DNA of 21,633 nucleotides from a virus. The position numbers were made by a program, and so were the translations under genes. The notes beneath the pieces are model-generated. The model worked only from the letters and a program-made list of their open reading frames with translations, had not been told where the DNA came from and did not search any database. Position 1 is the stretch's first letter, and every line of letters begins with the position of its first letter. The stretch spans positions 1 to 21,633 of the IMG/VR virus record IMGVR_UViG_3300008448_000783, one strand, 5' to 3'. Below are positions 313 through 21,515 of this stretch, one piece after another.

Positions 313-3300
313 ATGCCAAGTTATTTAGATTTTAATTCTACAAAAAAACTTAGAGATGAGTTATTAGCTAAGACCCTACAAAAGCCAAATGGTCCACAAA
401 CTTTTAACACATCTAACTACTCTATTCAAACTACCAGAAATATTGCCAATAGGGATTTAGGGGATGTAACATTAAACGATGATACATCTAGAGCTGCTCA
501 ATTAGTTTCAACAGATGGTAGTAATAGATTTGGACCTGAAAATAGTCAATATGAGGTTTTAGAAAATACAAGAATTTTAATTGACCCAGCAGGTAATATA
601 GGGTTGTATCCATATTTTCCAATAGCTGACGGTATATTAGGTAGAAGTCTTATTGGGGCTTTAAATTCTGGTAATTACGAATTTGAATCGACATTAGCAA
701 AATTTGCCAACTATCATTTAACCGAATCACCAGACGGTCCAGTTCAATCTAGAATTAGGCAAAATTTAAAAACAGCTACAGAAGGTAGAGCAAGAATATT
801 AGACGCCGTTAATGGTAATCTTTCATCTGCAATTAATATTATAAGAGGTAGAGAAAGATTAATTGAAAAAAATTATAAGATTACTGTTGCAAAAACTATA
901 CCTGGCAAAGCAATAGATTTTTTACAAACAGTTTCTGGTATAGAATTTCCATGGTCAGAAATACCTGGTGATTATTTAACAAATCCAGCAAACCCTGTTG
1001 TAAACAGACCAGTACCTAAAACTGAATTAGGAAAAATATTTCAAGATGCTACAGGTGTATTAGGTTCATTATTAGGAATACAAAGAAGACCGGCGGCAAG
1101 TAGAAAACCATCAGACTTAATGATTGAATATTTGAGTGATGGTCAAAAAGATGTTTTATTTGATAATTTATCTTTTTCAACTTATGCACCAAATTATACA
1201 ACCAGAGCTAGATCACAAAATACAAGTAAACTATTCAATTTTGTTGATAGTGTTGCTACTGGTATAAATAAAGTATTAGGTAGAGAAGCTCCAGAAGGTA
1301 AAGCATATATCGGAGATGATAGAGGAGATGATATTAAAAATGTTTTAGAAGATTTTAATCAAAATAAAGTATTAAGCCCATACTATCTTTCATATAAATT
1401 TGATTCAAAAGCTGCAGAGTTATTTTCTAATGAGAAAAATATTTCAGAAAGAGGTTCAATTCCGGGAAAATTAACATGGTTTAGTATTAATTCAAAAAAT
1501 AGATTAGGTGCCAACAATACGGAATATTCTTCAGAGAGAGGTATCCTTGAGGATAGCTTATCAACAAAGCAGGAATTTAGAGACGATTCAATACTTGGTA
1601 AAACACAACAATTATTAAATTCATTACCAAAGAATGGTGGTGAATCAAGATCACATGTTGCAAATGTTATTGATCAAACTTCAAGAGTTTTTAAAGAGGG
1701 TACAAAATTTATATCAAGAGGTTCAGCAATTGCATATGTTGATAAAGCAACGGGGGTACAAGATGGTACAGAATATTGTAGAGTTTGGACAAAGGATAGG
1801 GCTTATATGAACTATACAGATACCATGAAAAAAACTGGAACGATTAGAAAAATCGAAGACAGTGTTATGAGTACACCATGGAATTTAAATATAGCCCCCA
1901 TGTCAAATGGTAATAGATCTTTTGTTGGGTCTACTAACATAGACGGTATAGAGGGTAAAGCTAAAAAATATATGTTTTCTATTGAGAATTTAGCATGGAA
2001 AACTTCAAACAAATTTGGATATACTGTTAATGATTTGCCTATATGTGAAAGAGGTGCTACTGGTGGCCGTGTTATGTGGTTTCCTCCATATGATTTAAAG
2101 GTAAACGAAACTAATACAGCTAACTGGGATAAAAATAATTTTCTAGGTAGACCAGAACCGATATACACATATCAGAATACAGAAAGAACAGGTACAATAT
2201 CTTTTAAAGTTGTTGTTGACCACCCGAGTATTCTTAATTTATTAATTAAAGAAATTTCTGATGAAGAAGCTGAGAACTTTTTAAATTCATTCTTTGCTGG
2301 ATGTTATGATGTTGATTTTTATACTTTAGTTAGAAAATATATTACATTAGATCCATCCGATCTTCAATTGATTATGTCTTATCTTGAGTATTATAGAAAA
2401 GATGAAAATTTTAGAAGAGAAGACACAACAACATCACTTGAATTTAATAGCGTTGCTGGTGAAGTGACTGTAAAACCAGGAAGAGAAGAACCTATTGAAA
2501 GTCCAGCTGCGGATGGTAGAAATACCCTTGGCCAAGTATTAGCTGATAATATAATTTATTTTCCAAATGATATTCCAGGCCCTAAAAGCAACATATACAT
2601 TGATGCTAAAAGTCAATCATATGATTCAGTATATAGTGATTATATTAAAGATAAAGAAAATTTTAAAAATCAATTAGCTAGTGGTCTTAATACTATTTTA
2701 ACCGTTGATACAAAAGATAACAAAGCAGATAGATTTGTAATATTTGGAACAGAAGATCCAACAAGTGGAGGTACGATTTCAATTCAAACATTAATAAATG
2801 AGAAAAAGGGTTTAATTGATACAGCTTTTACACAACTACAAACAAATTTTGGTATAATAAGTGGGGCAACAGCAACACTTAAATCAGAATTAGAAAAGAA
2901 AAATATAAAACAAATAAAACTAACTATTGAGTCATCAACATCATTTGTTGCGGATGATTCATACAATATTAAACTTTCACATAGAAGATCTGATAGTTTG
3001 ATAAAATATGTATTAAAGTCGATTTCAAAAGATTCAAATACAATACCTGAATATAAATGGGATAAAACAATTGATGAATTAAATGCTAATCCAGCACAGA
3101 CCAATCAAACGGTAACAATTGATCTTAAAAAGTTAGGATATGGTGAGGATATTGAAGGATCAATGGTTGTTGACTTTGTTAACAAGGGTGAAAAAGCAAC
3201 AGCAAGTGGACCAGAAACATATGATTGCACTGGTAAAGAAATTAAAAATAAAACTGGTTTAAAAAAATACGCTCCAATTACTTTTTATTGTAGATCTGCG

Positions 3301-5438: not shown

Positions 5439-8400
5439 TCAATTAAATCAGAATGAAAACATATTAGTATTAGTAGATCAACAAAACATAGTACACATTG
5501 ATCCTAATACCGTTGTTTCCTCATCTGGCGATTTGCAACCAAGATTTGTTGATCACGAAAATTTAGTAATGTATGTTAACCTTGAGGCCGATCTGGTACC
5601 AAGAAGTGTTTTATATTCTGAATCTCAAACAAATACATTAACATCTGTTGCACAAGGAAAATTTAATTTACTTAGAAACTCAGACCCAAAAAATGAGTTT
5701 GAAAACAATTTTGATACAAATTGGACAGAAACATTTGTTTCAAATAATAATATAGCGTCTAGTAGAACAACCGGAGAAGGTGTACATTACGACCCAACTG
5801 CACAAACATTCGGTATTGATTCAATAAATGTTACAGTTAAAGGGGCAAACAACATCCCTCAAGTTGGTATAAATTTTATTGATGTTAGAGGTAAAACTTT
5901 ATTTGACGCCCCGGACAATTCACCATATAAAGCTTTTTTTCATCAACCATGGCCAATATTTTATTTAACAATTAAAGGATTTTATGGTAAAGCGATAAGA
6001 TACAGACTTCAGTTAGTTGATTTTAAATCTAAATTCAATGGCAGTACCGGTAATTTTGAAATTGCAACAAAATTTGTTGGCTCAAGCTACGCATTTTTAA
6101 ACGATATACTTTTACAAAACATTATTAATGCGCCATTCATGTATATGGTTGAAAAACCAGAACCACTTAAGGTGAATGAAAAAACAGGGTTTATTGAAAA
6201 AACTATTTCTAAAACAACAAAAGGATACGCAATATTAAAATCTGTTTATAACGAATATAAAGCAAAGGGTTATATAGATAAAAATTTTCCAGTTAAAACT
6301 CTTAGAGATTTATTAATGACTGCAACCGCTTTGGATACAATTATAGAAAAAGCACTTTTTTCTGAAACAATTGAACCAGATGTTTTAAGTGATGTGGCAC
6401 AATATGATAAGACTCTCGATAAATTTGAAAAGGCTATTATCTCTTGGGGTAGTAGATACCTTTCAGCAGATAATCCACCATATTCTGAGACCGTTAGATT
6501 TCCCGGATCAACCACTGATACAACTGTAAATTATTATAGATTAAATAAGCCAACAAACGATAGCAGTAAAGTTACAAGTGGCCCGCTTAATTTTGAAATA
6601 GTTACAGGAGCAACAACAAGTAACTCATTAGCATCTATTATAAAGTATTATGTAGATGATCTTGAAAAAAATAAAGCATTTGGTGCTAAACCAAAGGCCA
6701 AACTAAAAAACGGTATAGAAACACAGACAGTATCGTTAGATACAGTAAAAAATATTAAAAACTTTTATGAAATAAAAGATAGCCAAATAGTTGTATCAAA
6801 TGAAAAATTAATAAATTATATAAAATCAATACAAGCCACATTCATAAAGCAAAGAGACGCGGTAGAAAATGAAGTTGAAAATAAAATGAATGTGGTGATA
6901 CAAAACAAAGAGGTTGGTTTTGGTTTTAAACCTACAATTAGAAATATTTTTGCTGTTATTTTAGCAAATGCAGATACGTACATTAGACTAATGAAAGACG
7001 TACACAACAAGTCAATTCAAAAATCTGATTTAAGAAAAAAAGAAATAGCGTATGCCGCTAAAACCGCAGATGATCAAAGAGAAATAATTTATCCTTGGCC
7101 AGAAGTTAAAAAGAATGGTAGAGATGATAAACCAACATTCTTTTATCCCGCAGATCCAGAAATAATAGGATTAACAAAAGGTAATAACTATAATATTTGG
7201 CCAGAGGTTGAGTTTGTTGAAACATATAATAGCGTAGCTGTTAAAAGAGTGGATACTGGAACTGGTAAAGAAGTTAGTCCCGGAGAAATTACGTTTGTTT
7301 TTGATGATGATAAAGAAACAAGAGAAACTTTTAATGTAAGTTCATTATTAAAAATTGCAGACCCCGCACCATATATAAACAAATCTTTATCAAATATTCT
7401 TTACGAGATTTATGAGAGAGCACAGTTAATTACATCGTTAGAGAGTTTTGATTATGGAAAAGGTTTAGACGAAATTGTTGAAAATGAATTTAAAAATATT
7501 AGTGGAGCAACACAAAGTGATGTTGATATAAGAGCATTACTTAGTACAAGAATTAAAAGTATAACAGATTTAACAGATTCACTTCAAAAATACGCAGAAA
7601 AAGAGAGATACCCATATTTTCAAGATGGTCTAACAACAGTAGAATATATTAGAGGGTTACTTGATGATGATTTTAAAATTGAACATTATACTAATTCTGT
7701 TCAAAATAATGGTACCAAAAGTAATGAATTTGAGAAATTACAATCTGCTTTAGATTCATTTGTTATTCCAGAATATAGAACAAAAGAGTTTCCTTTTAAT
7801 TCTGATCTATACAGTTCATATGTTTCAACTAATTTATTGAGTAACACTTTCGGTTCCGGCTCATCTATTGGTTATAAAGGTATTTTTAAGGTTAATGAAA
7901 ATTCTAATTTTATTAGCTCACCAATTAATCCGAAAGCTTGGGTTAATTCAAGTTACCATAAAAATATGTTTTCGAGTCAAATAAAGTATGATAATTTTAC
8001 AAGAAATCTATTAAACACGCCATATTTTCACAAGCAACTATATGATGATTTTATGAAAGGCGGGGTTGAGGGTAGATATGTTGGATCGGCATATATTTTA
8101 TTAAATTCTTTACCATATAAAGATTTAGACGACGTTTTAGACTTTGATGGTAAAAAGACATTTATGTTTTCGTTATTTAAAGAAGTTGGTGCGACACATT
8201 ATATACCACATCATTTAATTTTAAAATGGGGGGCACAATATCACAGATATAAAAAATATCTTACTGACGGTATTGATATTATAAGCGGAATTACAATTCC
8301 TATTAGCGGAGCTACATTTTTTGATAACGCAACTAATGCTTCATTTAGTTTAACTGGAAATACAACACCAGATCAAACTGGAATGACTAGTACAATAACC

Positions 8401-18462: not shown

Positions 18463-20898
18463 ATGAAAGTACTAAAAAGAGACGGAACGTTAGAAGAGAT
18501 GAGATATGATAAGATCACTAAAAGAATTAGTGCTCTTTGTGATGACCTTAATATGGATTATGTTGATCCTACATTTATTACACTAAAAGTTACGCAAGGA
18601 ATTTATGATGGGATTACAACTAAAGAGTTGGATGTACTAGCGGCAGAAACTGCGGCATCTATGACAACAACGCATCCTGATTATGCAAAATTAGCGGGGA
18701 GATTGGCTGTAACAAATTTACACAAGACAACACCAAAGAAGTTTTCTCAGGCCATTAAAGAATTACATTCTTTTATTGAACCAAAGACTGGAAAGGAATC
18801 AACACTGATTTCAGATGATGTATATGAGTTCGTGATGGATAATAAAGAAATTATTGATGGTGCAATCAATATTACGAGAGATTTTGATTTTGATTATTTT
18901 GGCTTCAAAACCTTAGAAAGATCATATCTTTTAAAAATTGGTGAAAGAACCGTTGAAAGACCACAGTATATGTACATGAGGGTTGCTGTTGGTATTTGTA
19001 ATGGTGATGTTCAGATGGCTTTAAGAATTTATGATGATTTGTCACAACACTTTTATACGCACGCGACACCAACATTATTCAATGCTGGAACACGCAGACC
19101 ACAAATGTCATCTTGTTTCTTAATTGGAAATAAAGGTGACGATATTGATGGATTATTTGACACAATCAAAGATGTTGCAAAAATTTCTAAATGGGCTGGT
19201 GGTATTGGCTTACATGTTCATGATGTTCGTGCTAAAGGGGCATACATTAAAGGCACCGGCGGAATGTCAGATGGTTTACTACCAATGATGAAAACTTACA
19301 ATGAAGTTGCTCGTTGGATTAATCAAGGAGGTAAAAGAAAAGGTTCATTTGCAATTTATCTTGAGCCATGGCATTCAGATGTATTAGAGTTTATTGATCT
19401 AAGAAAGAATCATGGAAAAGAAGAGATGAGAGCTAGAGATTTATTTTTAGCAATGTGGACACCAGACTTATTTATGCAACGTGTTGAATCTGACGGTGAT
19501 TGGTCTTTATTTTCACCAGATGAGGCACCAGGGCTATCTGACATGTATGATACACCAGAAGATAAAGCTTTTACTCGTTTGTATGAATCATATGAACAAC
19601 AGGGTTTAGCCAGAAAAACAATCAAAGCTAGAAAACTAATGGATGCGATATTAACCGCACAGATTGAAACTGGAACACCTTATATGTTATACAAAGATGC
19701 TGCTAACTATAAGTCAAATCAAAAGAATTTAGGTACAATTAAATCTTCAAATTTGTGTACTGAAATTATTGAATATAGTTCACCAACTGAACAAGCTGTT
19801 TGTAACTTAGCATCAATAGCATTACCAAAATATATTTTAGATGGTGAATTTAATCATCAGCTATTATTTGAATACACTTACCAAGTTGTTAAGAATTTAA
19901 ATAATGTTATTGATTTGAATTTTTACCCAACAGAAGAAACAAAAAGATCTAACTTTAAACATAGACCAGTTGGTTTAGGTGTACAAGGATTAGCAGATGT
20001 ATTTTGTATATTGTCATTACCTTTTGAAAGTGAAGAGGCGGATAAACTACAAACAGAAATTTTTGAAACAATTTATTTTGCTGCAGTAACATCATCAAAA
20101 GATATTGCAAAAGAAGTTGGGGCATATGAATCAATTTCTGGTTCACCGATAGAAAAGGGAATTTTTCAATATGAAATGTGGGGTAAGACAGATAAAGATA
20201 TGTCAGGAAGATGGGATTGGAAATCTTTGAGAAAAGAAGTTGTAAAGTATGGTGTTAGAAACTCATTACTTGTTGCACCAATGCCAACGGCATCAACCGC
20301 ACAAATTTTAGGTAACAACGAAGCATTTGAACCATTTACAACGAATCTTTATTCAAGAAGAACATTAGGTGGAGAATTTATTGTTGTCAATAAACACTTG
20401 GTTAAAGATTTAATGAATATTGGATTATGGAATGAAGATTTGAAAAAGAAACTAATTCTTGAGAATGGATCTATTCAAAATATTCCAGAAATTCCTACAC
20501 CAATCAAAGAAGTTTATAAAACTGTTTGGGAAATGTCTCAAAAGAGAATTTTACAAATGGCGGCCAATAGAAGTATTTTTATCGATCAATCACAGTCAAT
20601 GAATTTATTTATCGATAACGCAACAAAAGCAAAAGTACTCGCGGCTCATTTGTTCGGTTGGAAGCTAGGTCTTAAAACCGGAATGTATTATTTGAGAACA
20701 AGATCTGCTGTTGACCCAATTAAAGGATTAGGTTTAGATACCTCAACAGTAAAGCCAGTTGCTGAAGTACAACCAAAGCAACAAACAGCATACGCTACAC
20801 CTCAAAATACTATTATAAGTGAAGAAACGCCTGAAGTTGTAATGATGGCTAGTAGGCCAGATGATTCACCATTTGAATGTGAAGGATGTGGATCGTAA
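18463..20898 (+). CDS. nrdA: Class Ia ribonucleotide reductase large subunit, eukaryote-type
   Basis: The 811-residue R1 subunit reduces ribonucleoside diphosphates. It has an N-terminal ATP cone (about 1-90: VLKRDGTLEEMRYDKITKRI onward), so dATP feedback is expected. Catalytic residues are clear: C218 (PQMSSCF), N430/C432/E434 (SNLCTE) with C432 as the radical cysteine, C447 (AVCNLAS), the radical-relay tyrosines Y742-Y743 (GMYYLRTRSA), and a C-terminal redox pair C806/C809 in ECEGCGS. C218 has the same number as in human RRM1. Residues 745-803 form a Pro/Gln/Thr-rich linker to the swinging tail. The protein is slightly longer than human RRM1 (792 residues). It is the last gene of the replication block; a structured non-coding segment and a terminator follow. 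Confidence 0.96.
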   Translation: MKVLKRDGTLEEMRYDKITKRISALCDDLNMDYVDPTFITLKVTQGIYDGITTKELDVLAAETAASMTTTHPDYAKLAGRLAVTNLHKTTPKKFSQAIKELHSFIEPKTGKESTLISDDVYEFVMDNKEIIDGAINITRDFDFDYFGFKTLERSYLLKIGERTVERPQYMYMRVAVGICNGDVQMALRIYDDLSQHFYTHATPTLFNAGTRRPQMSSCFLIGNKGDDIDGLFDTIKDVAKISKWAGGIGLHVHDVRAKGAYIKGTGGMSDGLLPMMKTYNEVARWINQGGKRKGSFAIYLEPWHSDVLEFIDLRKNHGKEEMRARDLFLAMWTPDLFMQRVESDGDWSLFSPDEAPGLSDMYDTPEDKAFTRLYESYEQQGLARKTIKARKLMDAILTAQIETGTPYMLYKDAANYKSNQKNLGTIKSSNLCTEIIEYSSPTEQAVCNLASIALPKYILDGEFNHQLLFEYTYQVVKNLNNVIDLNFYPTEETKRSNFKHRPVGLGVQGLADVFCILSLPFESEEADKLQTEIFETIYFAAVTSSKDIAKEVGAYESISGSPIEKGIFQYEMWGKTDKDMSGRWDWKSLRKEVVKYGVRNSLLVAPMPTASTAQILGNNEAFEPFTTNLYSRRTLGGEFIVVNKHLVKDLMNIGLWNEDLKKKLILENGSIQNIPEIPTPIKEVYKTVWEMSQKRILQMAANRSIFIDQSQSMNLFIDNATKAKVLAAHLFGWKLGLKTGMYYLRTRSAVDPIKGLGLDTSTVKPVAEVQPKQQTAYATPQNTIISEETPEVVMMASRPDDSPFECEGCGS

Positions 20899-20904
20899 GA
20901 TAAT

Positions 20905-20988
20905 GGGTGGCGCCCTCAAAGTTTAGCTGTCGTCAAGGCGTACCTTGAGCATCCAGGACTTGACAATACAGGGTGCGAATATCAAGTC
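20905..20988 (+). ncRNA. Candidate pseudoknotted structured RNA between nrdA and gp25
   Basis: Four helices can be drawn by eye. GGGTG (20905-20909) pairs with CATCC (20950-20954), with one G-T wobble. GCGCCCT (20910-20916) pairs with AGGGTGC (20970-20976), seven pairs with one wobble. TCAAGG (20933-20938) and CCTTGA (20943-20948) form a perfect hairpin with loop CGTA. GACTTGA (20957-20963) and TCAAGTC (20982-20988) form seven perfect pairs. The first two cross each other, and the second crosses the fourth, so the fold is a nested double pseudoknot. An alternative, GTCAAG (20932-20937) with CTTGAC (20959-20964), competes with the last two and would allow switching. The segment starts 6 bases after the nrdA stop, is richer in GC than its surroundings, has no sensible reading frame, and ends 8 bases before a terminator stem. 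No known Rfam class was recognised. It could be an mRNA 3'-end element, a small RNA or a riboswitch-like control. Confidence 0.6.
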
Positions 20989-20996
20989 ACAATACT

Positions 20997-21022
20997 AAAA
21001 CCCAACTTCGGTTGGGTTTTTT
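20997..21022 (+). terminator. Intrinsic terminator after nrdA and the structured RNA
   Basis: CCCAAC (21001-21006) pairs with GTTGGG (21011-21016) around a stable TTCG tetraloop, extended by AAAA (20997-21000) against TTTT. The run of six T residues is at 21017-21022. The AAAA and TTTT symmetry makes it potentially bidirectional, but no gene lies on the minus strand here. Confidence 0.93.
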
Positions 21023-21033
21023 ATTTATATCCA

Positions 21034-21059
21034 TTTTAGTATTGTTTATATTTATTGAT
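21034..21059 (+). promoter_or_regulatory. Probable promoter and leader of gp25-gp6
   Basis: After the terminator comes TTTTAGTATTG and then TTGTTTATATTT (21042-21053), identical over 12 bases to the word after the other terminator (12560-12571). TAGTATTG (21037-21044) is one mismatch from the Bacteroidetes -7 element TAnnTTTG. The ATG at 21060 follows without a Shine-Dalgarno sequence. If TAGTATTG is the -7 element, the transcript starts just before the ATG and is nearly leaderless. Confidence 0.45.
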
Positions 21060-21515
21060 ATGGCTACAAAGTATGGTATAGATTTTCCTTTTAGAAATAG
21101 CACGTTAGGTGACTATACTAGAATGACATTGAATGTAGATGAGGAGGTTAGAGCAAACCTTATTCATTTATTATTAACTAGAAAAGGAAGTAGATATTTT
21201 TTACCTGACTTCGGTACAAGGTTATATGAATTCATATTTGATTTAAATGATAGTATAACCTACAGCAGTATAGAAGATGAAATTAGAGAAACTGTTAAAA
21301 TTTATATACCAAATCTAGAGATAAACGCAATAAAAATTACAAATCCTGATATAGATCCAGAAGACGGCGCTTCAAGTATTAGTGAAGATGAGGATACTAG
21401 ATTATTTAGAGTTGGTGACGGTTCTACTAAACCATATACTGCCAAAATAAGAATTGATTATACAACAAATAATGGAACTTTTTCTAGTTCCGACTTTGTA
21501 ATTATTAACATATAA
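21060..21515 (+). CDS. 25: Baseplate wedge protein gp25
   Basis: This 151-residue member of the gp25/gpW family joins the wedge core to the sheath initiation point in contractile tails. The start is the ATG at 21060 (MATKYGIDFPF). An upstream GTG at 20973 is in frame, but that extension would have to read through the structured RNA and the terminator, so it is rejected. The core motif is LLLTRKGSRYFLPDFGTRLYEFIFD (37-61), matching the family pattern T-x-(R/P)-G-E-R-x-x-x-P-x-F-G. The usual Glu before Arg is Ser here (GSR, 43-45). The C-terminal part holds strands separated by an acidic loop (about 98-116) longer than in many members. Its stop is one base before the next ATG, typical of the conserved 25-6 pair. 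Confidence 0.9.
   Translation: MATKYGIDFPFRNSTLGDYTRMTLNVDEEVRANLIHLLLTRKGSRYFLPDFGTRLYEFIFDLNDSITYSSIEDEIRETVKIYIPNLEINAIKITNPDIDPEDGASSISEDEDTRLFRVGDGSTKPYTAKIRIDYTTNNGTFSSSDFVIINI

Follow-up and report, generated by a model that had tools for sequence, protein, structure and literature searches.

A pseudoknotted RNA downstream of a phage reductase gene represents a widespread class of structured RNAs that may act in trans

Positions 20905–20988 of the window, i.e., of the whole stretch of 21,633 nucleotides of DNA analysed here (a 21.6-kb virus record), specify a structured RNA of a kind that is widespread among phages. It is a compact covarying pseudoknot that is found in at least 148 contexts beside several kinds of gene, has no Rfam match and was absent from the searches of isolate phages that were made, and it thus looks like a new RNA class. 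The class is widespread in phages and apparently previously undescribed; the novelty concerns the RNA class, not necessarily a biochemical mechanism. Its placement, mostly in single copy and with neighbours that are exchanged, including the interior of tmRNA, suggests that one dose is kept for a purpose that is not tied to one adjacent gene, and this purpose might reveal a novel means of host control. We tentatively propose, at close to an even chance, that the RNA works in trans, as free RNA or as an RNA–protein particle.

The element lies in the gap between nrdA (18463–20898) and a gp25-like gene (21060–21515). Its first helix, P1, begins 6 nt past the nrdA stop codon, and a terminator hairpin (20997–21020) starts 8 nt beyond the end of the element at 20988. 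A preliminary description of this segment proposed four compatible helices of 5–7 bp, two of them perfect, within 84 bases that are GC-rich in an AT-rich genome, do not code and stand between a stop codon and a terminator, and all of this was borne out. The direct check of coordinates located the four helices exactly at 20905–20988: P1 (20905–20909/20950–20954) and P2 (20910–20916/20970–20976) contain one G·U pair each, while the internal hairpin (20933–20938/20943–20948) and P3 (20957–20963/20982–20988) are perfectly paired, and the crossings of P1 with P2 and of P2 with P3 are present. The GC content of the element is 52.4% vs. 31.9% in the whole window. A coding element is ruled out by 1- and 2-nt indels inside it among relatives. 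The parts of the locus are as follows:

18463..20898, plus strand: nrdA, large subunit of class I ribonucleotide reductase (phrog_84, E 3e-202; TIGR02506 above cut-off)
20905..20909, plus strand: 5′ strand of P1, GGGTG, partner 20950–20954 (100% of cells paired in 30 sequences, 99.6% in 57)
20910..20916, plus strand: 5′ strand of P2, GCGCCCT, partner 20970–20976, in a pseudoknot with P1 (100% of cells paired)
20917..20932, plus strand: linker with a small hairpin, AGT (20920–20922)/GCT (20926–20928) (3-bp pairing in 20 of the 24 pattern-matching sequences out of the 30-row nrdA-group alignment)
20933..20948, plus strand: hairpin TCAAGG-CGTA-CCTTGA inside the pseudoknot (98.5% of cells paired in 57 sequences)
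20950..20954, plus strand: 3′ strand of P1, CATCC (pair counts in 57 and 30 sequences)
20957..20963, plus strand: 5′ strand of P3, GACTTGA, partner 20982–20988 (in 30 sequences 96.2% of cells are paired, and 6 of the 7 pairs show two-sided changes)
20966..20969, plus strand: ATAC, near-invariant and unpaired, directly 5′ of the 3′ strand of P2 (A, T and A in 57/57; C in 54/57)
20970..20976, plus strand: 3′ strand of P2, AGGGTGC (pair counts in 57 and 30 sequences)
20977..20979, plus strand: GAA directly 3′ of the 3′ strand of P2 (G in 56/57, A in 57/57, A in 57/57)
20982..20988, plus strand: 3′ strand of P3, TCAAGTC, which in other members may pair 5′ of P1 (third-helix counts; 30-sequence alignment)
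20997..21026, plus strand: intrinsic terminator with a 10-bp stem, TTCG loop and T-rich tail, closing the transcript (hairpin call; the sequence varies among relatives)
21060..21515, plus strand: gp25-like baseplate wedge gene (phrog_261, E 4e-15)

The structural case rests on comparison and covariation and not on energy, since the nested minimum-energy fold is ordinary (z −0.56; 58 of 200 shuffles are as good). A P1/P2/P3 descriptor of equal score appeared in none of 2000 dinucleotide shuffles of 20846–21060, any descriptor match in 59 of them. Searches with the gp25 protein (56 loci) and with the C-terminus of nrdA (the best 80 of 598) supplied the relatives, and many of their nrdA–gp25 gaps hold the element with visible compensatory changes; other gaps are without it. 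The comparison of such homologous gaps, proposed in the preliminary description, shows the pairs to be conserved and covarying, with support for all four helices in 30 relatives. In this nrdA-group alignment P1 and P2 are paired in 100% of cells, the hairpin in 97.8% and P3 at the level given above, and 13 of the 25 pairs have two-sided changes. The observed value was reached by 0 of 500 shuffles on four measures and by 1 of 500 on the fifth, the number of pair types, and sliding the helix partners abolishes the pairing signal. Individual pairs illustrate the exchange: the fourth pair of P1 is UA in 22 sequences and AU in 8, the first pair of P2 is AU in 16, GC in 12 and GU in 2, and the second pair of P3 is AU in 14, UA in 13 and GC in 3.

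A second alignment covers more diverse members of the class and contains 57 of 60 representatives (L305, L334, and L368 were omitted for long inserts), 113 of 115 unique elements having been kept after removal of false matches. Here P1, P2, and the hairpin are paired in 99.4% of cells and 10 of 18 pairs have two-sided changes, among them 4 of 5 in P1; P2 has such changes at 3 of 7 pairs in both alignments. None of 500 shuffles was as high on any measure. The first pair of P1 is seen as GC, GU, AU, CG, and UA, and the second pair of the hairpin is CG in 36 sequences and UA in 19. At two positions G·U is the commonest pair (47/57 and 46/57), which points to RNA rather than duplex DNA. Among the 148 contexts listed, a tRNA stands nearby on the same strand in 11 and on the opposite strand in none; together with the preference for G·U this suggests that the element acts as RNA. 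Six members missed by the finder or scan (L046, L050, L122, L134, L148, and L401) were read by hand, with strands chosen by the reader, and five of them satisfy all three helices, L134 failing P2 in the register tested. The very divergent L046, L148, and L122 keep P1, P2, and P3 with different letters, and L050 is shortened, lacking the hairpin and keeping P1, P2, and P3. Judged from these comparisons of sequence, the double-pseudoknot structure at 20905–20988 is real.

The core of the class, whose members are ~60–100 nt long, consists of P1 (5 bp) followed directly by P2 (7 columns) and an internal hairpin that is mostly YAAGG...CCUUR. The junctions are AUA(C/A)A ahead of the 3′ strand of P2 and GAA after it, with AUA and both A of GAA present in 57/57 sequences, and these invariant unpaired nucleotides hold across genomic contexts. 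The linker equivalent to 20917–20932 is missing from the subtype found in tmRNA leaders. The strand after GAA pairs with the linker between P1 and P2, as in the window, in 65 of 113 elements (inner form) and with sequence 5′ of P1 in 36 (outer form); in L288 and L360 the outer pairing continues, as read by eye, into a longer stem. The remaining 12 elements have neither third helix at threshold, four of them being tmRNA-internal and six being reductase members with a one-mismatch P3. Shuffled tails also pair often, the inner count of 65 comparing with a mean of 38 and a maximum of 52, and the outer count of 36 with a mean of 23 and a maximum of 32. Since this control is weak, P3 rests on the 30-sequence alignment. 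Provided that both forms exist, members of the class differ by a permutation of the closing helix, which lies inside or outside the pseudoknot.

IMG/VR was scanned by pattern, first for the hairpin and next with a version of the 3′ junction that disfavours the nrdA type, and together with the loci this gave at least 148 distinct contexts after removal of duplicates; both scans list only part of their matches, so the class is larger than this. The context classes were assigned by short patterns and ARAGORN, a few proteins being tested by family models, and the sample is biased to nrdA by the gene queries used. With this reservation, 73 of the 148 listed follow reductase genes, 31 lie immediately upstream of phage tmRNA genes, 11 are inside tmRNAs, 11 are in tRNA clusters, 21 are elsewhere and one is truncated. 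The reductases of the 73 listed contexts have a CEGCGS-like tail in 64 cases and a PDCVSCEA-like tail in nine. The spacing from their stop codon to P1 is 6–8 nt in 67 and 10 nt in six, and a run of five T occurs within 95 nt after the element in 71. Three kinds of reductase precede the RNA, namely class I NrdA, an NrdE-prime-like enzyme (of 592 aa in L167 and L234) and a class II-like enzyme (L046; the best NCBIfam match, TIGR02505, is just below cut-off, and a Pfam RNR-II insertion domain is present). In L046 the RNA and gp25 are preceded by this class II-like gene (792–2702) instead of nrdA; in L212 a frame that is reductase-like by eye (730–1896, minus strand) and a 65-aa frame precede the RNA. 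In loci of the L267 type the next gene, by eye, is not gp25. The terminators that follow the element vary in sequence from one relative to another. Among 90 distinct nrdA flanks, a sample biased by loci fetched with element-derived patterns, 17 are without the element, and by eye the terminator is retained there. Stop-codon read-through stimulated by a pseudoknot 6–8 nt downstream was rejected, the extension frame not being conserved by eye (L014, L015, and L037).

Several of the tmRNAs are supported by Rfam or ARAGORN, the others by a 5′-end or tag pattern; the L235 tmRNA scores 37.6 bits (E 1e-13), under the Rfam cut-off of 47. In the 31 tmRNA-leader contexts listed the motif TAnnTTTG, which we take to be a Bacteroidota promoter element, is always present upstream, the background being 1.8% per 30-nt window, and among all 39 elements with the motif the gap to P1 is 12–15 nt in 36. 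No TAnnTTTG stands just upstream of the window element. In the 11 tmRNA-internal contexts listed the element sits between the tag and the 3′ domain, where by eye it occupies the place of a pseudoknot. Two such phage tmRNAs, L235 1–425 and L361 ~6519–6983 (minus strand), are missed by ARAGORN, and their tags are recognisable, ending in ALAA and AIAA; the embedded pseudoknot may be the reason for the miss. The element also occurs close to phage tRNAs; in L276 it begins 3 nt after tRNA-Gly. In four tRNA-rich phages (L191 4930–5340, L238 6540–6850, L401 1200–1590, and L384 1300–1590) the pseudoknot appears to lie within a longer, apparently non-coding stretch of 250–350 nt, which may be a larger RNA or a tmRNA that has diverged; ARAGORN calls no tmRNA in any of them, nor does Rfam in L191 and L238.

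Known families did not account for the RNA. None of 4227 Rfam 15 families matched the window at gathering threshold, in agreement with the preliminary description, which recognised no known class. Neither tmRNA nor tRNA was found in the window (Rfam 15 and a tRNA/tmRNA search); a tag frame and tRNA-like ends, absent around the window element, are present around other members, e.g., L280 and G010. When 17 related loci were compared with Rfam, the matches were solely to tRNA and tmRNA, and in L280 and L361 the tmRNA match spans the element, which is inside the tmRNA. A permissive Rfam search of the window and L238 gave sub-threshold matches; istR in the window aligns mostly to the terminator and one flanking stem and was rejected, as was a permuted hammerhead, the 57-row alignment containing no conserved CUGANGA (the hammerhead core used for comparison is that given in PMC10085705). 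The nrdA-type hairpin pattern had 15 matches in 84,980 bacterial and archaeal genomes, by eye none with the rest of the element, and the covariance model found nothing in 395 Bacteroidota genomes under strict filters, with ten candidates scored per genome shown and no positive control. Among isolate phages no full element was found with the window DNA, the elements of L238, L191, L275, and L361 or the L235 tmRNA region as queries; the partial matches to elements were a 29-nt stretch within a head gene (H36, E 0.3) and a 31-nt one in the upstream flank of the L275 element (H37), and the tmRNA query had short matches in 352 records, the 30 listed covering about the last tenth of the query. One query of plasmids gave no match. 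No description of such an RNA was found in the part of the literature covered (listings and passages, with few subscription papers).

Closest in ecology are ROOL and GOLLD, structured RNAs without a known function that phages likewise encode, frequently close to tRNA islands; GOLLD members often exceed 800 nt (PMC12286853). ROOL is also large and both have Rfam profiles, whereas the present class is ~60–100 nt, has another architecture and matches no Rfam family at threshold. The manA and wcaG motifs are structured RNAs of T4-like marine cyanophages; unlike the present RNA they are candidate riboswitches placed in potential 5′ UTRs (PMC2864571), and the sole trace of them here is a sub-threshold wcaG score over L235 (25.9 vs. 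42 bits). The tmRNA pseudoknots PK2–PK4 are comparable in that 11 listed contexts place the present element inside tmRNA too, but the class has its own conserved core, is mostly outside tmRNA and is located elsewhere in 6 of 13 records with tmRNA.

Copy number and position were followed with the covariance model on whole records, which matched in 26 of 30 and 36 of 40 (one of the 40 being a bacterial genome). Exactly one copy is present in 60 of the 62 matching virus records, many of which are fragments and none known to be complete, and two in G008 and G038; the model is weak on the most divergent members (L122, E 1e-3), so that copies may be missed. Among matching records of at least 100 kb one copy is present in 21 of 22. 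In the second G008 copy (L401), P1, the hairpin and P3 are made of new letters and still pair. In 13 of the 29 records searched nrdA is present, and the RNA adjoins it in five (G001, G002, G014, G015, and G022), lies elsewhere in five (G006, G008, G009, G010, and G011) and is absent from three (G003, G016, and G017, picked because their gap is without the element), which indicates that the RNA is dispensable. An above-threshold tmRNA is present in 13 of 27 records, with the RNA directly upstream in four (G011, G024, G025, and G028), inside in one (G010), elsewhere in six (G005, G006, G007, G008, G012, and G022) and absent in two (G003 and G016). These records are partly close relatives, include many fragments and were chosen via known loci, and thus are not independent draws. 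The position of the RNA is therefore independent of any one neighbouring gene, as expected of a trans-acting RNA; this is consistent with trans action and is not proof of it.

What could such an RNA do? Three roles were suggested in the preliminary description, and of these a trans-acting phage small RNA fits best, since an RNA that is mostly in single copy while its neighbours change is favoured to be one carried on a convenient transcript rather than a repeated cis-acting module. The phage would make the RNA from whichever transcript is convenient: in the window it would form the end of the nrdA mRNA, in its 3′ UTR, bounded by the terminator and, as a guess, probably trimmed near the nrdA stop codon, and in other phages it would come from its own promoter ahead of tmRNA, from within tRNA arrays or from inside tmRNA. 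Again as a guess, the rigid fold might expose the invariant nucleotides of its junctions to a partner that is conserved from host to host, possibly during host takeover. In its full form, to which we give somewhat less than an even chance, the proposal is that an undescribed, widespread class of phage non-coding RNA acts in trans on a conserved host machine (e.g., the ribosome, RNA polymerase, a ribonuclease or a defence protein), is encoded mostly in one copy on interchangeable transcripts, including the inside of tmRNA, and has a closing helix in two permuted forms. Several observations weigh on the other side. The short spacing from reductase stop to P1 speaks against trans action, and the association across three kinds of reductase could be a real tie to reductase, which slightly lowers our estimate for the trans reading and raises those for a cis module and a switch, although the sampling through nrdA queries may inflate this tie. 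Wherever it was seen, the RNA also belongs to another transcript, so that it may have a cis role.

The main rival, which we regard as unlikely, is a cis-acting protection or processing module, a rigid pseudoknot that blocks exonucleases or sets the RNA ends of the transcript that hosts it, be it the 3′ end of nrdA mRNA, the 5′ leader of tmRNA or a tRNA precursor; the exonuclease-blocking 3′ end for nrdA mRNA put forward in the preliminary description is one form of it and is possible. The element is indeed near transcript ends, as the T runs of the reductase contexts and the position ~13 nt after TAnnTTTG in tmRNA leaders illustrate, it often adjoins RNAs that need maturation, it replaces a pseudoknot inside tmRNAs (by eye) and it persists behind three kinds of reductase gene; stable-RNA neighbours such as tmRNA and tRNA would also be predicted by such a role. 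However, a generic protector would often be expected several times per genome, which disagrees with the single copy in nearly all records, records with their own tmRNA or nrdA often carry the RNA elsewhere, and the nrdA flanks without the element keep their terminator (by eye). Processive antiterminators such as put and EAR bind RNA polymerase and act on the transcript that contains them, and a similar activity would suit an RNA that comes just past what is presumably the promoter of tmRNA units and, in other contexts, precedes the terminators ahead of late genes. Its occurrence inside mature tmRNA sequence is hard to reconcile with this, and antitermination would defeat the T run kept soon after the element in nearly all reductase contexts listed, so we hold it to be quite improbable. 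An RNA primer or an R-loop forming replication origin would be single copy by nature, and the element is mostly found once per record at varying positions; its presence inside tmRNA, and in other contexts at the 3′ end of transcripts with a terminator nearby, leaves this reading a slim chance.

A self-cleaving ribozyme of HDV-like topology, trimming tRNA, tmRNA or mRNA ends, was considered because the order P1a P2a hairpin P1b (hairpin) P2b in the 57-row alignment resembles the HDV-like order P1a P2a hairpin P1b P2b. Theta ribozymes have a similar order of two pseudoknotted helices and an internal hairpin, also lie near phage tRNAs and require a catalytic cytosine at the first position of J4/2 (PMC10879173). 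No counterpart of this cytosine is found: the junction is NATA(C/A)A in 57/57, its sole conserved C stands near the junction end, two bases ahead of the P2 GGG, with A in its place in 3/57, and on this account the HDV-like reading was dropped. Moreover, cleavage would break the tmRNAs that contain the element, and theta ribozymes are tRNA-associated, whereas tRNA clusters make up just 11 of the 148 contexts listed; a ribozyme therefore appears very improbable, in spite of cases such as the element next to tRNA-Gly. The least probable reading, a metabolite-responsive switch controlling nrdA or gp25, takes up the nucleotide-responsive control of the preliminary description. It gains from the three kinds of reductase gene that precede the RNA and from the invariant junction nucleotides, which could form a pocket, but the same RNA occurs beside or inside tmRNAs and in tRNA clusters, and the terminator, which is 8 nt away, shares no strand with the element and varies among relatives, so that the overlap or competition with a terminator that marks an attenuator or riboswitch is absent from the window. 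The additional competing pairing on which the switch was based is present in the window; a comparable pairing of at least 6 bp was found by a crude test in 30 of 108 members, and hence it is not general and the switch is disfavoured.

Further observations concern the neighbourhood of the element. In L158 and L024 the nrdA–gp25 gap contains after the nrdA stop a remnant, GGGTAATACCC, that looks like a decayed element, and the gap is filled by repeated terminator arms of GCGACA type. In G022 (C1:100609–104115) the nrdA match is in two parts inside one open frame of 1175 aa, which is intein-like. Immediately 5′ of the gp25 start codon the window carries TTATATTTATTG at 21046–21057. This string occurs once in the window, where about two occurrences are expected by chance with one mismatch allowed; the same or a near-identical string stands at the same place in most of the printed relatives while the rest of the gap differs, and it is possibly a late promoter giving a nearly leaderless gp25 mRNA.
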